From positions 342,538-406,537 of the forward strand of contig CALIUY010000012.1 in the NCBI GenBank assembly GCA_938048455.1: DNA of 64,000 nt, written 5' to 3'. This DNA is from an uncultured Desulfobacterales bacterium (GTDB lineage: Bacteria > Desulfobacterota > Desulfobacteria > Desulfobacterales > SpSt-501). Below the pieces are notes generated by a model, which was given only the letters and a program-made list of their open reading frames with translations, was not told where the DNA came from and searched no databases. The position numbers were made by a program, and so were the translations under genes. This document shows, piece by piece, positions 593-35,089 of the stretch; positions within the stretch are counted from its first letter, which is position 1, and every line of letters begins with the position of its first letter.

Positions 593-1879
593 ATGAAACA
601 GAAGTGGATGCGGGTGTTGGGCGGGCTGGTGTTGGCCGTCGTTTTGGGTGCGACCGCGGCCTCCGCCGCCGTCGAACTGAACATGTACTACCCCGTCGCC
701 GTGGGCGGACCGATCACCAAGATCATCGACGACATGATCGCCGAATTCGAAAAGACTCATCCGGCAATCAAGGTCAAGGCCGTCTATGCCGGCAATTACG
801 ACGACACGCGCGTCAAGGCGCTTGCCGCTCTCAAGGCCAATCAGCCGGTGCAGCTGAGCGTGCTTTTTTCGATCGACCTCTTCGAGCTCATGGATCAGGA
901 TGTCATCGTGCCCTTCGACGATCTGGCGACCTCGGCCGAGGACAAGCAGTGGCTGTCCTCGTTTTATCCCGCGCTGATGCAGAACTCCAAGGCCAAGGGC
1001 AAGATCTGGGGCATTCCCTTTCAGCGCTCGACCATCGTGATGTACCACAACAAGGAGGCCTTCAAGGAAGCCGGCCTCGACCCCAACAAGCCGCCGGCCA
1101 CCTGGAAGGAGATGGCCGAGATGGGCCAGAAACTGACCAAGAAAGACGCTTCCGGCAACGTCACGCGCTGGGGCGTGCTGATCCCTTCGACCGGCTACCC
1201 ATACTGGATGTTCCAGGCGTTTTGCATTCAGAACGGACGCGAGCTCATGAACCAGGACGGGAATCAGACCTACTTCGACCGGCCCGAAGTCGTCGAAGCC
1301 CTGCAATACTGGCGGGATCTCGCGGCGAAGTACAAGGTGATGCCCGAGGGGACCGTCGAATGGGGCACCCTGCGCCAGAAATTCTTGGAAGGCGCAACGG
1401 CGATCATGTGGCACACCACCGGCAACCTCACGGCCGTGCGCGAGGGCGCCAAGTTCGACTTCGGCGTGAGCATGCTGCCGGCCAACAAACGCCGCGGCTC
1501 GCCCACCGGCGGCGGAAACTTCTACATTTTCAAGAAAGCCTCCGCCGAGGAGCGCCAGGCGTCGCTCCAGTTCATTAAATTCATGACCTCGCCGGAGATG
1601 ACCGCGCGGTGGTCCATGGCCACCGGCTACGTGGCCACCAGCCCGGCCGCCTATAAAACGGCAACGCTGGAAAAGTACATCGCGGATTTTCCGGCCGCGG
1701 CCGTGGCCCGCGACCAGTTTGAGTATTCGGTGGCCGAACTCTCGGTGCACGAGAACGCCCGCGTGAAGAAATTCCTGGATGACGCCATCCAGAGCGTGCT
1801 CACCGGCGCCAAGTCGCCCCAAGACGCCTTGAGCGGCGCCCAGCAACAGGCCGAGCGCGTACTCAAGTCCTACCGCTGA
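593..1879 (+). CDS. Extracellular solute-binding protein, family 1 (UgpB/MalE-like)
   Basis: 428 residues. The start at 593 is preceded by AAGGAGGATCATC and gives a classic Sec signal peptide: MKQKWMR, a hydrophobic stretch, then ATAASA before AVELNMYY. The mature part has the family-1 pattern of ABC sugar-binding proteins (PFQRSTIVMYHNKEAF, PPATWKEMAEMGQKL, GTLRQKFLEGATAIMW, PTGGGNFYIFK). It should bind its ligand in the periplasm and deliver it to the two permeases encoded next. UgpB-like glycerol-3-phosphate/polyol or oligosaccharide binding is possible; the ligand is not decidable by eye. Confidence 0.9.
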   Translation: MKQKWMRVLGGLVLAVVLGATAASAAVELNMYYPVAVGGPITKIIDDMIAEFEKTHPAIKVKAVYAGNYDDTRVKALAALKANQPVQLSVLFSIDLFELMDQDVIVPFDDLATSAEDKQWLSSFYPALMQNSKAKGKIWGIPFQRSTIVMYHNKEAFKEAGLDPNKPPATWKEMAEMGQKLTKKDASGNVTRWGVLIPSTGYPYWMFQAFCIQNGRELMNQDGNQTYFDRPEVVEALQYWRDLAAKYKVMPEGTVEWGTLRQKFLEGATAIMWHTTGNLTAVREGAKFDFGVSMLPANKRRGSPTGGGNFYIFKKASAEERQASLQFIKFMTSPEMTARWSMATGYVATSPAAYKTATLEKYIADFPAAAVARDQFEYSVAELSVHENARVKKFLDDAIQSVLTGAKSPQDALSGAQQQAERVLKSYR

Positions 1880-1897
1880 GGAGATCCTTCGGCGTCG

Positions 1898-2806
1898 ATG
1901 GCCGCCGCACTTCGGAAAGCCATGAGCTTCAACTCCAAAACCGCTCGATGGGTGAATGCGTGGCTGCTGCTCTCGCCGGCGGCGGTGTTGATGGTCGCCT
2001 TCACGCATTTTCCCATCGTCGGCGGGTTTTTCGCGAGTTTTTTCTCCACCGCACGCCCGGGGCGGCCGAGCAGGTTCGTGGGGGTGGAGAACTACACCTC
2101 CATGCTGAACGATCCCGTATTCTGGCAGGTGCTGGGCAACAACTTTTTTTATGCCCTCGGCACCATTCCCCTGAGCGTTTCTCTGGCGCTGCTGATGGCG
2201 GTGTGGGTGAACGGCCGGTTTCGCGGCCGGGCCGTGGTCCGCGCCGCCTATTTCACCCCGACCATCCTGCCGATGATCGCCGTGGCCAACATCTGGCTCT
2301 TCTTCTACACCCCCCAGATCGGCCTGCTCGACAAGATCCGCAGCCTTTTCGGACTGGCCAGCCACAGCTGGCTGGGCGATCCCGGAACGGCGCTGGCTTG
2401 CCTGATGGTCCTGGCGGTCTGGAAGGATGCCGGGTTTTTCATGATCTTTTACCTCGCGGCGCTGCAGGCAATCCCCCCGGAGCTCGAAGAGGCCGCCGTC
2501 ATCGAGGGCGCCGGCCGCTGGTATTTCTTCCGGCGGATCACCGTGCCGCTGCTCATGCCGACGACGCTTTTCGTCGTGGTCAACGCCACCATCCACTCCT
2601 TCAAGCTGGTCGACCACATCTTCATTCTGACCAAGGGCGGACCGGACAACGCCTCCTCGTTGCTGCTCTACTACATTTACGAAGTCGCTTTCAGCTTCTG
2701 GGACACCGCCTACGCCTCGACGCTGACCGTCGTGCTCCTGGCGATTTTGGGCGCACTGGCCGTCGGGCAGTTCGCCTATCTCGAAAAAAGGGTGCATTAC
2801 CGATGA
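1898..2806 (+). CDS. ABC sugar-type permease, MalF/UgpA-like
   Basis: 302 residues with six predicted membrane segments, the first near residue 20 (WVNAWLLLSPAAVLMVAF). The EAA loop that docks on the ATPase reads EELEEAAVIEGAGRWYFFRRI near residue 195. The ATG at 1898 has GAGGAG rather far upstream; an ATG at 1922 (MSFNSK) just after CGGAAAG is an equally reasonable start. The stop codon overlaps the next permease's start (ATGA), which indicates translational coupling. Confidence 0.9.
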   Translation: MAAALRKAMSFNSKTARWVNAWLLLSPAAVLMVAFTHFPIVGGFFASFFSTARPGRPSRFVGVENYTSMLNDPVFWQVLGNNFFYALGTIPLSVSLALLMAVWVNGRFRGRAVVRAAYFTPTILPMIAVANIWLFFYTPQIGLLDKIRSLFGLASHSWLGDPGTALACLMVLAVWKDAGFFMIFYLAALQAIPPELEEAAVIEGAGRWYFFRRITVPLLMPTTLFVVVNATIHSFKLVDHIFILTKGGPDNASSLLLYYIYEVAFSFWDTAYASTLTVVLLAILGALAVGQFAYLEKRVHYR

Positions 2807-3621
2807 TCCGCGGGGTGGACGAGGGAGAGCGCCTGGAAATGCTGGCGGCCTGGCTGTTGGCCTTTCTGTGGGCCGCGCCGCTGCTCTATGCCGCTTGGGC
2901 GGCCTTCCACCCCATGGATTTCGTGAGCCGCTTCGATCTGAGGGCGCCCCTCACCCTGGACAACTTCCGCTCGGCGTGGAAAGTGGCGCCCTTCGCGCGC
3001 TATTTCCTGAACACCTTCCTTTTGGTCTGCATGACGCTCGCCGGGCAGCTGATCGTTTGCACCCTGGCGGCGTATTGCTTCGCCCGTTTCGAATTCCCCG
3101 GAAAGAACGTCGCCTTCCTCCTCGTGCTGGTCCAGATCATGATCATGCCCGATGTGCTGATCGTGCAGAACTACCTCACCACGAGCCGCCTCGGGCTGGT
3201 GGACACGATCCTCGGCATCGGCCTGCCCTACATGGGCTCGGCCTTCGGCATCTTCCTGCTGCGCCAGGCGTTCAAACAGGTGCCCCAAGAGCTCGAGGAC
3301 GCGGCGCGCGTCGAAGGGGCCGGCTGGCTCTCCATCCTGCTGAAGGTCTACGTGCCGCTGACCCGACCGACCTATCTCGCCTATGGGCTGGTCTCGGTGA
3401 GCTACCACTGGAACAACTTCCTGTGGCCGGTGGTCATCACCAACTCCACCACCACCCGGCCCCTTACCGTCGGGCTTTCCATTTTCGGCGCCCCCGAGTC
3501 CGGGGTCAACTTTTCGGTCATCTCGGCCGGCACCCTGCTCGCCGTCTCCCCCCTTTTGATCGCTTTTTTGCTCTTCCAGCGCCAGTTCGTGCAGAGCTTC
3601 ATGCGCTCGGGCATCAAGTGA
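2803..3621 (+). CDS. ABC sugar-type permease, MalG/UgpE-like
   Basis: 272 residues starting at the ATG inside the ATGA overlap with the preceding permease. There are six membrane segments. The EAA motif reads QELEDAARVEGAGWLSILLKV near residue 165, and the C-terminus is the usual short cytoplasmic tail (RQFVQSFMRSGIK). It is the second membrane subunit of the importer formed with the preceding ATPase, binding protein and permease. Confidence 0.9.
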   Translation: MIRGVDEGERLEMLAAWLLAFLWAAPLLYAAWAAFHPMDFVSRFDLRAPLTLDNFRSAWKVAPFARYFLNTFLLVCMTLAGQLIVCTLAAYCFARFEFPGKNVAFLLVLVQIMIMPDVLIVQNYLTTSRLGLVDTILGIGLPYMGSAFGIFLLRQAFKQVPQELEDAARVEGAGWLSILLKVYVPLTRPTYLAYGLVSVSYHWNNFLWPVVITNSTTTRPLTVGLSIFGAPESGVNFSVISAGTLLAVSPLLIAFLLFQRQFVQSFMRSGIK

Positions 3622-27629: not shown

Positions 27630-28328
27630 ATGGCGCTGATTCTCGCGCACGACCTAAAAAAGAGCTATCGCACGGGAGAGGTGACCACCGAGGCGCTGCG
27701 GGGGGTGAGCTTCTCCATCGATGCGGGGGCGTTCGTCTCCTTTGTCGGCCCCTCGGGCAGCGGCAAGACCACCCTGCTGAATCTGGTGGGCTGCCTGGAC
27801 AAACCTTCGGGGGGGCGGCTCCTGGTGGCGGAGACGGAGGTGGCCTCGCTGGGCGGCACCGACGCTGCCCTTTTCAGGGGCAAACACATCGGCTTCATCT
27901 TTCAGAGCTTCAACCTGATTCCGGTGCTGACGGTCTTCGAAAACGTGGAGTACCCGCTCGTCATGGTTCAAAACGTTCCTGCAGCTCGGCGGCGTGAAGC
28001 GGTGGAAGAGCTGCTGGAAGCCGTCGGGATGACCGACCAGCGCCGTAAAAAACCGGACCAGCTCTCCGGCGGCCAGAAGCAGCGGGTCGCCATCGCGCGT
28101 GCGCTCGTGACCCGGCCGGACCTGGTCCTGGCCGACGAGCCCACCGCCAACCTGGACCATGAAACGGCCATGACGATCATCCACCTGATGAAGGCGATCC
28201 GCGACAAGCTGCGAACCACCTTTGTCTTCTCGACCCACGACGCCCGGATCATCGGCGAGGTGGAATCCATCTTCCAACTCGAGGACGGCCGCCTGAAAAA
28301 CAATGGAGGAGGGTTGCGACATGGCTAA
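27630..28328 (+). CDS. ABC transporter ATPase, LolD/MacB-like
   Basis: 232 residues. The start at 27630 follows GGAGGGAC. Walker A is GPSGSGKT (residues 40-47), the signature is LSGGQKQRVAIARAL, Walker B is LVLADEPTANLD and the switch is FSTHD. The sequence FIFQSFNLIPVLTVFENVEYPL is the hallmark of the LolD/MacB/FtsE-like group, which powers mechanotransmission rather than import. It overlaps the FtsX-type permease gene by 8 bp. Confidence 0.92.
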   Translation: MALILAHDLKKSYRTGEVTTEALRGVSFSIDAGAFVSFVGPSGSGKTTLLNLVGCLDKPSGGRLLVAETEVASLGGTDAALFRGKHIGFIFQSFNLIPVLTVFENVEYPLVMVQNVPAARRREAVEELLEAVGMTDQRRKKPDQLSGGQKQRVAIARALVTRPDLVLADEPTANLDHETAMTIIHLMKAIRDKLRTTFVFSTHDARIIGEVESIFQLEDGRLKNNGGGLRHG

Positions 28329-29559
28329 CCTTTTCAAAATCGCGGCGCGCAACCTGATGCGCTACAAGCGCCGGACCCTGCTCACCCTGGGGCTGATCGT
28401 CATCGGGGTCGTGTTTGTTGCGATCTTCGTGGGCGTGACCGACTCGTTTAAAAACATGATGATCGGGCAGATCACCGATTCCTACATCGGCCATATGCAG
28501 ATCCACCGCAAAGGATACCTCGCGGCCATCGACACCCTGCCGTTGAACATGAACCTCAAGCTGCGCGCCTACGGTAAAATCGAGTCCATTCTCCAGGAGT
28601 CGCCCGGCGTGGAGAGCTACTCGCCGCGGATCAAGCTGGGCGGCATGTTCAGCAACTTCACCGAAACGACCAGCATCCGCTTGAACGGAGTGGACCCGGA
28701 AAAAGAGCTGCGGACATCGCCGCTGCTCATGTCGCGGGTGCTGGACGGCGAAAAGGCCATCGCCAAGGGCAAGATTCTGGTGCCCGAGCTTCTCGCCCGC
28801 GGCATGAAGGTCAAGGTGGGCGATCCGGTCGTCATCATCGCCACCAACAAGGACGGCTCCGTAAACGGCAAGCAGTTCATGGTCGGAGGTATCCTCGAGG
28901 GCGTCACCGGCCCGGGCGGCCGCGACGGCTACGTGCACATCGAGGATGCGGCGGAGCTGCTGCGGATGGAGGAGATGGAGATCAGCGAGATCGCCGTGCG
29001 GCTGAAGGAATTCAGCCGGCTCCAGGCCGTGTTCAAAGAGATCACGGGGAGACTGGCTCAAGAAAAGAACCCGGCGGGCCAGCCCATGTTCGAGCTCCAC
29101 ACCTGGGAGACGCTTTCGCCTTTCTACAACATCGCGCGGATGATCGATCTGATGACCATTTTTATCAAAATCATGCTGGTCGCCATCGTCCTGGTCAGCA
29201 TCATGAACGTGATGATCATGGCGGTTTACGAGCGCGTGCGCGAGATCGGAACCATCGCCGCCATGGGCACGCCGCCGCGCAGGATCCTTTCGCTCTTTTT
29301 GATGGAGGGGTTTCTGATGGGCGCGGTCGGGGCTGTCATCGGCCTTCTTTGCAGCATCGGCATCGCGTTCATTCTGAATGTTTCCAAGATCACCTTCGAT
29401 TTCGGCCGGCAGACCGGCCTGCTGCTTTCCGCTCGGCTCAATCCGGTGGAACTGCTCGTGGTGGCCGGAATCGTGATCGTCGTCGCCGTAGCGGCCAGCC
29501 TGCAGCCATCCTTCAAAGCCGCGCGGATGGATCCGATACAGGCGTTAGGCCATGTCTGA
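28321..29559 (+). CDS. ABC transporter permease, FtsX/LolE-like
   Basis: 412 residues; the start at 28321 follows GGAGGAGGG. One N-terminal helix (TLLTLGLIVIGVVFVAIFVG) is followed by a MacB-type periplasmic core domain of about 220 residues and three C-terminal helices (FIKIMLVAIVLVSIMNVMIM, MGAVGAVIGLLCSIGIAFIL, VVAGIVIVVAVAASLQPSF). This is the LolC/LolE topology, used to extract lipoproteins or envelope lipids from the inner membrane. With the ATPase it forms one transporter. Confidence 0.9.
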   Translation: MANLFKIAARNLMRYKRRTLLTLGLIVIGVVFVAIFVGVTDSFKNMMIGQITDSYIGHMQIHRKGYLAAIDTLPLNMNLKLRAYGKIESILQESPGVESYSPRIKLGGMFSNFTETTSIRLNGVDPEKELRTSPLLMSRVLDGEKAIAKGKILVPELLARGMKVKVGDPVVIIATNKDGSVNGKQFMVGGILEGVTGPGGRDGYVHIEDAAELLRMEEMEISEIAVRLKEFSRLQAVFKEITGRLAQEKNPAGQPMFELHTWETLSPFYNIARMIDLMTIFIKIMLVAIVLVSIMNVMIMAVYERVREIGTIAAMGTPPRRILSLFLMEGFLMGAVGAVIGLLCSIGIAFILNVSKITFDFGRQTGLLLSARLNPVELLVVAGIVIVVAVAASLQPSFKAARMDPIQALGHV

Positions 29560-29571
29560 TGGCTTCGCAAG

Positions 29572-29662
29572 AAGGTCAATTTCTGCGTTGCGCTTCATCT
29601 CGCCGTCGCGGCGACGTACGGAACGTAGGCCTGGCTCCACGAGATTCGCGCGCCTTGACCTT
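29572..29662. repeat. Structured intergenic repeat, copy 1
   Basis: The core (29580-29654, TTCTGCGTTGCGCTTCATCT and onward) is about 80% identical to copy 2 at 30651. It is enclosed by AAGGTCAA (29572-29579) and TTGACCTT (29655-29662). An internal hairpin TACG-GAA-CGTA lies at 29617-29627. Both stems differ in sequence from copy 2 yet keep pairing, so the structure itself appears to be conserved. Confidence 0.7.
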
Positions 29663-29752
29663 GACGTTCTTACCGAGCCCTGGAAACGAAGGCTTTCAAA
29701 AGTTTGGCTTTTCCCGGTGGGAGTCCCGCCGAGGCGAGACCGCAACCGGATC

Positions 29753-29767
29753 GCGGCTGGAAGCCGC
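29753..29767. repeat. REP-like palindrome
   Basis: GCGGCTGGAAGCCGC is a 6-bp perfect stem with a GGA loop, set in AACCGGATC...TTCCACAACA. It resembles GCGGCTxxAAGCCGC repetitive extragenic palindromes known from several proteobacteria. It lies in the 342-bp gap between the permease and the LolA-like gene, together with structured repeat copy 1. I see no other feature in that gap. Confidence 0.45.
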
Positions 29768-29901
29768 TTCCACAACATCTGAACTTGCTGGCCGGTGAAA
29801 CGCTGCCTCGGCTAGCGTGCAACGCTTCTAGCGAATCCACCAACAGCGGTGGCGGTGAAACATCGGTTCGTCCGGACGCTCAAGCCGAAAGGAAGATTCA
29901 A

Positions 29902-30630
29902 ATGCTCAAGATGCTATCGATACTGATATCCCTCGTATGTGCCGCCGGCGCTTCCGCTTTGGACGGGGCGGAAATTCTCGAAAAGGTGGACCGCAATCTG
30001 GCGCCGCCCTCCTATGAGCTTTACCGCAAGCTGATCAACATCGAGCCGAACGGCGCCAAGAAAGAATATGTCCTTTATACCGTGAAGAAAGGCAAGGACA
30101 GGGTGGCCGGCGTGTTTCTCTCGCCGGCGAGCGACAAGGGCCGCAGTACGCTGCGGCTGGGGGAGAACATGTGGCTTTACATTCCCAACGTCGGCAAACC
30201 CGTGCGCATCACGAGCCTGCAGTCGGTGGTGGGCGGGGTGTTCAACAACTCCGATCTCCTGCAGCTCGACTACAGCGACGAGTACGACGTGGTGGGGCTC
30301 GAGGAGTCGGATACGGAATACATTCTCGACCTCAAGGCCAAGACCCGGAGCGTGGCCTACGACCGGCTGAAGATGTGGGTGGACCGCGAAAAAATCATGC
30401 CCACCCGCATCGAGTGCAAGACCGAGGCCGAGATGCTGATCAAGACCCTCTACTTCAAGGAGATCCAAGACTTCGGTGGCGGCTTCGTGCGGCCGGCGGT
30501 GATCGAGACCGACAGCCCGCTCTACAAGGGCTACAAATCGATCCTGATGTTCGCGAAGTTGAAGGTGCGGGATTTTCCCGACGAGGTCTTTACGCTAACC
30601 TATATGCCCAATATCGAATCGTTACGCTGA
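29902..30630 (+). CDS. LolA-like outer-membrane lipoprotein-sorting protein
   Basis: 242 residues. The start at 29902 follows GAAAGGAAG. The signal peptide is MLKMLSILISLVCAAGASA. The mature protein begins LDGAEILEKVDRNLAPPSYE and has the half-barrel pattern of the LolA/COG2834 group (LGENMWLYIPNVGKPVRITS, NSDLLQLDYSDEYDVVGLEE, VDREKIMPTRIECKTEAEML). It is a likely periplasmic carrier working with the LolDE-like ABC transporter upstream and the outer-membrane barrel downstream. Structured repeats sit on either side of it. Confidence 0.85.
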   Translation: MLKMLSILISLVCAAGASALDGAEILEKVDRNLAPPSYELYRKLINIEPNGAKKEYVLYTVKKGKDRVAGVFLSPASDKGRSTLRLGENMWLYIPNVGKPVRITSLQSVVGGVFNNSDLLQLDYSDEYDVVGLEESDTEYILDLKAKTRSVAYDRLKMWVDREKIMPTRIECKTEAEMLIKTLYFKEIQDFGGGFVRPAVIETDSPLYKGYKSILMFAKLKVRDFPDEVFTLTYMPNIESLR

Positions 30631-30643
30631 TGACTTCTTAACG

Positions 30644-30737
30644 GACCCAGTTTCGGCGTTGCGCTTCATCTCGTCGTCGCTGCGGCGCACGAAGCGTGTG
30701 CCTCACTCTACAAGATTGGCGTGCCTTGAACTGGGTC
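30644..30737. repeat. Structured intergenic repeat, copy 2
   Basis: The core 30651-30728 (TTTCGGCGTTGCGCTTCATC and onward) matches copy 1 at 29580 in the same orientation. Here the enclosing arms are GACCCAGTT (30644-30652) and AACTGGGTC (30729-30737), and the internal hairpin is CACG-AAG-CGTG (30688-30698). T:A in copy 1 is replaced by C:G here, and the whole outer stem is different but still complementary. Confidence 0.7.
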
Positions 30738-30851
30738 GCTTGACGAAGCCATCGGTCAGAAAGAAAGCTCTTCGTAAAACGATAACCAACTGAGATGCGG
30801 ATCCCTCGGGCGGAACCATCGAATTTGCCGGCTAAAACGCGCAGGAACCAT

Positions 30852-32168
30852 GTGCGGTCTTTGCGGGTTTTCTGCTCGATTGGAGTTCGGCTTTTGTTCG
30901 CCGCTCTGATGACGACACCAGCGAGCGGCGCCGCAGACGGATACGCGTTCGACCCCTCGGAGACTGAAAAAAAAATCTACTCCTTCGGAGGATATGCAGA
31001 GGTCAAGCCGATTTTATTCGACCTCGATCGGGGTGCCGCCCTCTACAAAACGCGTTTTTTCGACCGCGGCGTCGGCGACCCCCTCCGGCAGGTTGATTTC
31101 ACCCTGCAGCTTGACGGCGGCATCGAGTGGAACATCTTCAAGGCCTTCGCCCGGATCAACAACTCCTTGAGCCGCACTTGCGACGGGTGGTTGGACGACT
31201 CCAAGCCCTACGAGCTCTTCGTGGCGGCGAAACCAACGCCCTCGCTCACCGCTTCCGCCGGGAAGCTGACCGCGAAATGGGGCAAGGGCTATGCCTGGAA
31301 CCCGGTTGCCTTCGTGGACCGGCCCAAGGACTCCGACGACCCCACCCTCAATCTGGAAGGCTTTTACATGGCCGGCTTCGACTACATCAAGAGCTTCGAA
31401 GGACCGCTCAAGACCGTTTCTTTCTCCCCTCTTCTGCTGCCGGTGGATTATGGTCTGAACAACGACTTCGGCGAATCCGGTCATACCAATTTTGCCGCGA
31501 AGGTCTATTTCCTGTTGTGGGATACCGATATCGACTTCCTGTTTCTGACGGGAAACAGCCGCCCCGATCGCTTCGGGTTTGACTTCTCCCGCAACATCAC
31601 CACCAACCTCGAAATCCACGGGGAGTCGGCCTGGATCAAGGATTTTCGGCTTAAAAAAGTCGATGCCGCGGGGGTGGTTTCCGAATCCGAATTCGATGCC
31701 TGGAGCGGATTGCTGGGCCTGCGGTACCTGAGCCGCATCGATACTACCTATATCCTCGAATACTACCACAACGGCACCGGCTATAGCGAACGCGAAGCCA
31801 AAGACTATTACACCTTCGTTGATCGCGCCTACGATGTCTACCTCGATACGGGCAACGCCGGCCCGATCCGGAAAGCCGCCAACCTCACCCGGGGCGCCTA
31901 CGGCCGATCCAATCCCATGCGGGATTATCTCTATTTGCGGGTCAGCCAGAAGGAGCCCTTCGACATTCTCTATTTCACCCCGGCGGTTACAACCATCTTC
32001 AACCTAAATGACCGCAGTTTCTCCCTCTCCCCGGAGCTGCTCTACACCGGGATCACCAATCTCGAGCTGCGGCTCAAGGGCACGCTTCTGGTCGGCGACA
32101 ACGCCAGCGAATTCGGTGAAAAGCAAAGCGACGCCCGCCTGGAACTGCGGGTACGCTATTATTTTTGA
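30852..32168 (+). CDS. Predicted outer-membrane beta-barrel protein
   Basis: 438 residues from a GTG at 30852 preceded by AGGA; an ATG at 30795 would add 19 residues. The start chosen gives a signal peptide (RVFCSIGVRLLFAALMTT, cleaved near SGA). The mature part alternates short polar/aromatic strands typical of barrels (AWIKDFRLKK, TYILEYYHNGTGY, LELRLKGTLLVGDN) and ends in VRYYF, the usual C-terminal aromatic signature. It is probably the outer-membrane end of the LolDE/LolA-like system upstream. No specific family is recognised. Confidence 0.75.
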   Translation: MRSLRVFCSIGVRLLFAALMTTPASGAADGYAFDPSETEKKIYSFGGYAEVKPILFDLDRGAALYKTRFFDRGVGDPLRQVDFTLQLDGGIEWNIFKAFARINNSLSRTCDGWLDDSKPYELFVAAKPTPSLTASAGKLTAKWGKGYAWNPVAFVDRPKDSDDPTLNLEGFYMAGFDYIKSFEGPLKTVSFSPLLLPVDYGLNNDFGESGHTNFAAKVYFLLWDTDIDFLFLTGNSRPDRFGFDFSRNITTNLEIHGESAWIKDFRLKKVDAAGVVSESEFDAWSGLLGLRYLSRIDTTYILEYYHNGTGYSEREAKDYYTFVDRAYDVYLDTGNAGPIRKAANLTRGAYGRSNPMRDYLYLRVSQKEPFDILYFTPAVTTIFNLNDRSFSLSPELLYTGITNLELRLKGTLLVGDNASEFGEKQSDARLELRVRYYF

Positions 32169-34147: not shown

Positions 34148-34502
34148 TGGTGGAGGCGGCGGGAGTCGAACCCGCGTCCGAGAACCTTCCATTCAGACCT
34201 CTACGTGCGTATACCGGATTTTGTTCTCGCCTTCGGTGCCTCCTCCGGGCAGGATGCACCGTCGGCCAGCCCGCTGCATTTCGCCTCTCCGGACGCAGGC
34301 CCTCCGGAGAGGCTATCCCGCAAGTCGGCGTCCACTACCGGGTCTGCAGGAGGAACCCGGCGGGACGGCAGCCGCTTTAGGCGGCTACGGCGTAAGCATA
34401 ATCGTCTGCGATTATGTTTAACCCCACCCTGTTTAACGAGCAGGCAGGACGCTCGGCACGCAGCCTGAACTTCAATGCCCCCGTCGAAGCCGTTTCGCCC
34501 CC
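34148..34502 (-). ncRNA. ssrA: Transfer-messenger RNA (tmRNA)
   Basis: About 355 nt. On the minus strand it begins GGGGGCGAAACGGCTTCGAC and ends with a T-arm-like GGTTCGACTCCCGCCGCCTC followed by CACCA, the two halves of the tRNA-like domain. The tag frame at 34409-34377 reads GCA GAC GAT TAT GCT TAC GCC GTA GCC GCC TAA, i.e. ADDYAYAVAA. The terminal AVAA resembles known proteolysis tags. It rescues stalled ribosomes together with SmpB, encoded 128 bp upstream on the same strand. Confidence 0.97.
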
Positions 34503-34630: not shown

Positions 34631-35089
34631 TCAGCGCGATTTTCGCGCCCGCTCCACCTCACGTTTTTCGTCGCGCTCGCGGATGGAACGACGCTTGTCG
34701 TACTCGCGCTTGCCCTTGACGAGGGCGAGCGTCACCTTGGCGCGGCCGCCCTTGAAATAGATCTTGAGCGGCACCAGCGTGTGCCCCTGCTCGTTCACCT
34801 TGCCGTAAAGTTTGTGGATTTCGCGCTTGTGAAGGAGAAGCTTCCTCGTCCGCAGGGGGTCGTGGTTGTCGTGGTGGGCGAAGGGGTAGGGGCTGATATG
34901 CACCTGATGGAGCCAGACCTCGCCGTTCTTGATCCGGGCGTAGGAATCTTTCAGATTCACCTTGCCCAGCCGAAGCGACTGGACTTCGGTGCCGGTGAGG
35001 ACGAGGCCGGCTTCGAGCTGCTCGAGGATGAGGTAATCGTGCCGTGCTTTGCGGTTTTCGGCAATGACCTTAATGGGGGGAGCATCCAT
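34631..35089 (-). CDS. smpB: SsrA-binding protein SmpB
   Basis: 152 residues, the normal SmpB length. Diagnostic stretches: [60 protein letters not shown] and the basic C-terminal tail [20 protein letters not shown]. It binds tmRNA and places it in the ribosomal A site, mimicking the codon-anticodon stem. It sits directly upstream of ssrA. Confidence 0.97.

Follow-up and report, generated by a model that had tools for sequence, protein, structure and literature searches.

Two diverged copies of a long imperfect hairpin, very probably a decayed MITE, at the stop codons of adjacent genes in a Desulfobacterales genome

The window analysed here is a stretch of 64,000 nucleotides from an uncultured Desulfobacterales bacterium (assembly GCA_938048455.1, contig CALIUY010000012.1, positions 342,538 to 406,537 of the forward strand). 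Near its middle lies a gene cluster in which a Pfam scan recognises an ABC ATPase, an FtsX/MacB-like permease and a LolA-like protein, followed by a 457-aa ORF, and two repeats, referred to as E1 and E2, adjoin the FtsX-like and the LolA-like genes (Table 1). Further along, a tmRNA gene is present at 34148-34502 on the minus strand (Rfam RF00023, 196.7 bits), beside an ORF (34631-35089, minus strand) whose product looks SmpB-like.

Table 1. Features of the locus and the basis on which each was assigned; positions are those of the window.
Feature	Position	Strand	Basis
FtsX/MacB-like permease, host gene	28303..29559	+	PF02687, PF12704
TGA stop of FtsX-like gene (T plus first two bases of E1)	29557..29559	+	Sequence
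E1, decayed copy (hairpin part) after FtsX-like gene	29558..29682	+	Model match, repeat pair, same place in G005
E1 apical hairpin TACG-GAA-CGTA	29616..29626	+	Sequence; coordinates by eye
LolA-like protein, host gene	29902..30630	+	PF17131
TGA stop of LolA-like gene (T plus first two bases of E2)	30628..30630	+	Sequence
E2, decayed copy (hairpin part) after LolA-like gene	30629..30753	+	Model match, repeat pair, same place in G004
E2 apical hairpin GGCGCACG-..-CGTGTGCC	30687..30702	+	Sequence; coordinates approximate
E2 outer right end, probable, decayed	30754..30790	+	Comparison with flanks of other copies
Next ORF, 457 aa, without Pfam match	30795..32168	+	ORF list, Pfam scan

A first-pass annotation of this DNA had reported two direct copies of a structured repeat at 29572-29662 and 30644-30737, each with an outer stem and an inner hairpin. 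A repeat search finds them where they were claimed, as one direct pair of 106 nt with 75% identity (29556-29661 and 30627-30732), and the stems and inner hairpins are legible in the sequence. The positions given were right but the element is longer, starting with the G that directly follows the T of the upstream gene's stop (29558 and 30629), with the hairpin ending near 29682 in E1 and near 30753 in E2. Each copy retrieves the other genome-wide by BLAST at E = 1.3e-15, and a covariance model of 27 copies, E1 and E2 among them, matches the window copies with 108.5 and 107.6 bits (29556-29685 for E1 and 30627-30756 for E2). The two repeats are diverged copies of the same long imperfect hairpin, and neither BLAST nor the covariance model reveals a convincing third copy in this genome (the assembly is listed as 96.5% complete, in 64 contigs), and no Rfam family matches at either repeat. 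When each is folded alone as RNA, E1 is little better than its shuffles (z of -1.3 on the plus and -2.2 on the minus strand) and E2 is clearly better (z of -3.1 and -4.0); folded as single-stranded DNA, neither stands out, with z between -0.6 and -1.4.

The same locus was compared in three related genomes. In G003, which is listed as 100% complete and has no element match by BLAST or the model, both E1 and E2 are absent, the FtsX-like gene stops with TAA, and the LolA-like gene ends with CAG TAA about 20 nt ahead of the apparent next start. G004 contains E2 and lacks E1, and the stop of its FtsX-like gene is TAG, and G005 contains E1 with the same TGA, on a contig that ends inside the LolA-like gene and so covers the E1 site only. 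As E1 is common to G005, and E2 to G004 without E1, the two are separate old insertions. The repeats had been described as a pair flanking the LolA-like gene, but they are not one paired unit. A mobile DNA hairpin was one of the options put forward for them, and the absence of E1 from the same spot in two sister species (G003 and G004) agrees with it. In the FtsX-LolA gap of G004 another small palindrome, AACCCCCTTTATCAAAGGGGGTT, is present in place of E1 (L068, minus strand, near 2340-2290).

Relatives of the two copies are widespread. BLAST matches at E 1e-3 are found in 18 of 96 genomes, this one included, and the covariance model matches 270 of 389 genomes of the order at E 1e-3 and 120 of 297 genomes of the phylum at E 1e-5. 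These are counts of genomes with a match and not of copies, with at most 8 candidates per genome scored in the order search and at most 11 in the phylum search, and the lowest-scoring model matches are possibly different hairpins. With a strict pattern, 16 stretches of named records are recovered, all of them MAGs titled Desulfobacteraceae, Desulfobacterales or Deltaproteobacteria, and plasmid and phage records searched with one copy gave no match. The family is common in sulfate-reducing bacteria and their relatives, the phylum Desulfobacterota as judged by the record titles. The copies used below were drawn from the top of the match lists, and decayed copies are therefore under-represented among them.

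Some loci depart from a simple single copy. At L061 (G001, 2016-2267) there is a tandem pair about 122 bp apart with the arm region in common, and the arms are G+C-rich yet complementary. The 177-bp copies at L276 and L278 (G213) exceed the 151-bp type by a small inserted hairpin whose arms are CCCGCC and GGCGGG, a repeat nested in a repeat. Copies follow the same saccharopine dehydrogenase-like gene in G004 (L104) and G005 (L149), at sites about 6 bp apart, and these diverge far more than their flanks, pointing to repeated insertion or replacement.

Intact copies are about 150-160 bp long and have terminal inverted repeats (GAYGnnnnCGTAAAAAGTC / GACTTTTTACGAGnnCATC). Read in the orientation of the window, the left end, GAYGGCTTCGTAAAAAGTC, is followed by a left arm containing GCGTTGCGCTTCAT, an apical hairpin (GGCGTAC-loop-GTACGCC) and a right arm containing CGCGCCTTGAA. 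Then come a mirror image of the left end (GCTTTTTACGAAGCCATC or CTTTTTACTTTGCCATC), termed the inner mirror, and, after a spacer of about 6-10 nt, the outer right end, GACTTTTTACGAGnnCATC. The left end has two possible partners, namely the inner mirror, with which it forms the hairpin (the left end itself being the left arm and the mirror the right), or the outer end, with which it forms the transposon terminus. Where the left arm departs from the consensus the inner partner follows in 20 of 35 scorable cases and the outer end in 3 of 35 (120 copies), so it is the hairpin that is kept and not the symmetry of the transposon ends. Elements with the same ends around other short palindromes, some like a CGTCATTCCGG-type repeat, occur at L279, L280, L281 and L282, and the ends seem to carry several cargoes.

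Target duplications were counted in 108 of 160 distinct copies, namely those having full flanks and an outer right end with no more than three errors, the other 52 being left out because they have no clear outer right end or no full flanks. In 52 of the 108 the hexamer preceding the left end is repeated exactly behind the right end, and in 69 the two hexamers agree at five or six positions; other offsets give 0-7 exact repeats, and shuffled mates a mean of 0.74 and a maximum of 4. Counting over copies supports 6 bp rather than the 5 bp guessed initially. The target copy to the left of the element starts with A in 67 of the 69 and ends with T in 67, such that the duplication is ANNNNT in a wider context near TYANNNNTRA. 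A filled and an empty site can also be compared, as an element with the same ends and another palindrome occupies a site in G004 that is empty in G005, and ATTTTT is duplicated there (read by eye). A simple gene caller places only 5 of 160 copies inside an ORF, and an open frame of at least 100 codons in one of the six frames spans the site in 86 of 155, so a location between genes depends on that gene caller.

The family is mobile DNA, because its intact copies lie between 6-bp target duplications, and it is a MITE, having the terminal inverted repeats, constant-length duplication and short, dispersed, mostly extragenic copies of that class. Of the two options posed earlier, an RNA acting within the lol-like operon and a mobile DNA hairpin, the second is thereby shown for the family; the window copies are too decayed for a target duplication to be readable at either, and in the right flank of E2 (30754 to 30790) neither a clear outer end nor a duplication is evident by eye.

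Among the matches listed, no transposase with the ends of the element was found in the genomes and families tried. ISNCY (NF033593) was considered as a source and rejected, with 39 match rows in 9 of 14 genomes and no facing ends at the 20 loci examined, as was DDE_Tnp_1 (PF01609), with 30 matches in 4 genomes and none between facing ends. Searches for the end pattern in 6, 27 and 1 genomes returned no transposase between ends among the matches listed. On 20 contigs of six genomes there are 6 facing pairs of ends that are 1.6-4.7 kb apart versus 50 under 300 bp, and no ORF within five of the six long pairs (all but that of G213 C15) is transposase-like by eye. ISDol1 was also entertained as a candidate for the autonomous partner. 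Two inverted copies at L250 (G239, 1562-3187) surround a 428-aa ORF, presumably a cation-efflux protein, in a possible composite unit with no outer duplication visible by eye.

Both window copies form a TGA stop from a T and their own first two bases, E1 for the FtsX-like gene and E2 for the LolA-like gene, and copies of the family coincide with stop codons at a higher rate than comparable sites. When exactly one open frame of at least 100 codons runs up to the left end, the T and the GA of the element are in frame as a stop in 36 of 52 copies, with 14 and 2 in the other frames; these counts cover 155 of 160 copies, five with less than 400 nt of left flank being omitted. Element sites fall into 36 at a stop, 33 intergenic and 86 spanned by an open frame, compared with 95, 390 and 2127 for control ANNNNT sites followed by RA in the flanks. 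The stop-to-intergenic ratios of 36:33 and 95:390 differ with a Fisher p of 3e-8, and a looser comparison (36:103 versus 112:1966) gives 7e-14, both values being optimistic in that the copies are partly orthologous or related by descent.

The upstream frames include recognisable genes, with 25 of the 36 carrying a Pfam domain and several of these domains aligned right up to the profile end, as with phenylalanyl-tRNA synthetase, citrate synthase and aconitase; 9 of 14 scanned ORFs in frames 1 and 2 also have a domain (there are 16 in all, L146 and L152 being left out). L161, one of the 11 frames without a domain, was rejected as a stop-codon case, as its frame is antisense to a gene start, and the 36 thus include one antisense artefact or more; the check brought up the filled and empty pair of G004 and G005 described above. 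Fifteen of the 36 stop cases have a readable duplication; in 10 of them the second target copy continues into TGA, TAA or TAG, indicating that insertion split the native stop after its T and that the GA comes from the element. The TRA context is also found at 27 of 54 insertions that do not adjoin a gene end, so the effect is partly a taste for the target rather than for genes. Among the 104 copies whose two ends can both be read, 20 have a gene stop at the left end and 3 have one at the right (p 0.0005).

Mobilisation by a RAYT (Y1 transposase), as for REP/BIME-type palindromes, would fit the palindromic form, the dispersal and the high copy number, but RAYT movement is not known to make target duplications such as the 6-bp ones present here. 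GTAG REPs, according to an excerpt of PMC3733652, have a palindrome terminus that often supplies the stop codon of flanking ORFs, but they are 20-40 bp long and provide TAG. The element is far longer, provides TGA, makes a target duplication and lacks the GTAG/CGTC-tagged form in both length and ends, and we regard a RAYT-mobilised REP as a scarcely credible identity for it.

A structure of 44 pairs, written by hand, was tested on the alignment of 27 copies, in which 91.4% of pairs are standard, 29 of the 44 are changed on both sides, and 94 cells are both-sided, where shuffles give 25.1 and sliding the partners gives 16-40. For 99 distinct further copies, in an alignment fitted to the covariance model and hence leaning towards it, the values are 93.7%, 31 of 44 and 306 cells. 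The covariation is real, and the stems do stay paired in additional copies, as the first-pass annotation expected of a conserved fold. Its argument had been that both stems changed and still pair and that the fold is therefore selected; the first half holds, and selection is not proven by it, since template switching predicts the same pattern. To call this evidence of selection was too strong, given that five pairs of orthologous insertions have 17 one-sided and 6 both-sided pair changes. Pairing thus also decays in place, and between E2 and L038 there are 9 one-sided and 2 both-sided changes.

A selected structured RNA, in which the hairpin works at mRNA 3′ ends in stability, attenuation or termination and the mobile origin is history only, is a possible but doubtful account of the pairing. 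The strong covariation and the preference for the sense orientation (20 stops against 3) speak for it, as do bulges that are nearly fixed, the CTTG context being kept in all 149 distinct rows and the GTT context in no fewer than 144 of them, though the rows were picked by similarity. However, wobble cells over 150 rows number 87 for GT/TG on the plus strand versus 156 for AC/CA, the wobble of the other strand, a count strongly influenced by two columns, of 56 and 28 cells. Plus-strand wobble is not in excess, which lends no support to selection on plus-strand RNA; in addition, no terminator-like site was found in E1, E2 or L058, and the excess of one-sided changes in orthologous copies counts against an RNA kept by selection.

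Alternatively, the covariation could be purely mutational, with template switching on DNA keeping the arms complementary without selection on the fold. Between L077 and its ortholog L079 a block of three bases has switched to the other arm's exact complement, and L100 and L110 differ at few positions, among which is a G-C pair replaced by T-A; both cases fit template switching, and one is a likely instance of it. Both-sided changes with few wobble intermediates are also as it predicts, and the mechanism is known for RNA hairpins (PMC8794818, in excerpt). Against it, a mismatched TTC/TTT loop stands in 65 rows and is seemingly corrected to AAA/TTT in one, and the bulges hardly vary. Unrestrained correction would be expected to remove loop and bulges alike, so their persistence counts against correction alone, and as a complete explanation we hold mutation to be unlikely. 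Template switching and selection are both taken to be at work on the pairing.

E1 and E2 are very probably old, decayed copies of a non-autonomous MITE of about 150-160 bp when intact, sitting on stop codons. A transposase acting in trans, probably of the DDE type, would have moved the copies, and the T of the target joined to the GA of the element gives the TGA stop. The hairpin would then form part of the upstream gene's 3′ UTR, and its pairing would be maintained jointly by selection and by template-switch correction of one arm against the other. In the window the insertions widened the gaps in the ABC-transporter/LolA-like cluster with no reading frame broken.

Bacterial MITEs such as ERIC, Correia/NEMIS and RUP (PMC2229807 and PMC10969869, both in excerpt) are likewise short, non-autonomous and dispersed, have terminal inverted repeats and a target duplication, and form a long stem-loop if transcribed. 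Most families listed in the excerpt of PMC2229807 end in TA, unlike the GA...TC ends, 6-bp ANNNNT duplication and stop-codon habit of the element. YPAL/RU-2 of Yersinia resembles it in being palindromic and about 168 bp long with inverted repeats internal to its ends, and is reported to be co-translated with upstream genes (same excerpt), but has duplications of 3 to 26 bp rather than a constant 6 bp and is set apart by this description. Chunjie of Geobacter uraniireducens is also a MITE in related bacteria, of 178-235 bp with one copy in an operon, compared here by its description in an excerpt of PMC10969869. The open-licence PMC literature returned nothing on the core sequence, on palindromic repeats or MITEs of Desulfo- organisms, or on Desulfobacterales repeats, and the family was not met in open-licence sources including the excerpts of PMC2229807, PMC3733652, PMC10969869 and PMC6382973.

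By cutting behind the T of a stop and restoring the stop, a mobile element can avoid doing harm by simple means. A broader and tentative proposal is that of a phylum-wide mobile hairpin whose transposase recognises TRA and splits stop codons behind the T, with the element's own GA rebuilding them, and whose sense-oriented hairpin provides a ready-made mRNA 3′ end, the fold and bulges being selected for acting on mRNA. If true, a transposon would be distributing 3′-end structures across genomes while costing the host almost nothing. The hairpin's numerous copies, which include orthologs in different species, offer a testbed for selection versus template switching as the source of compensatory changes.
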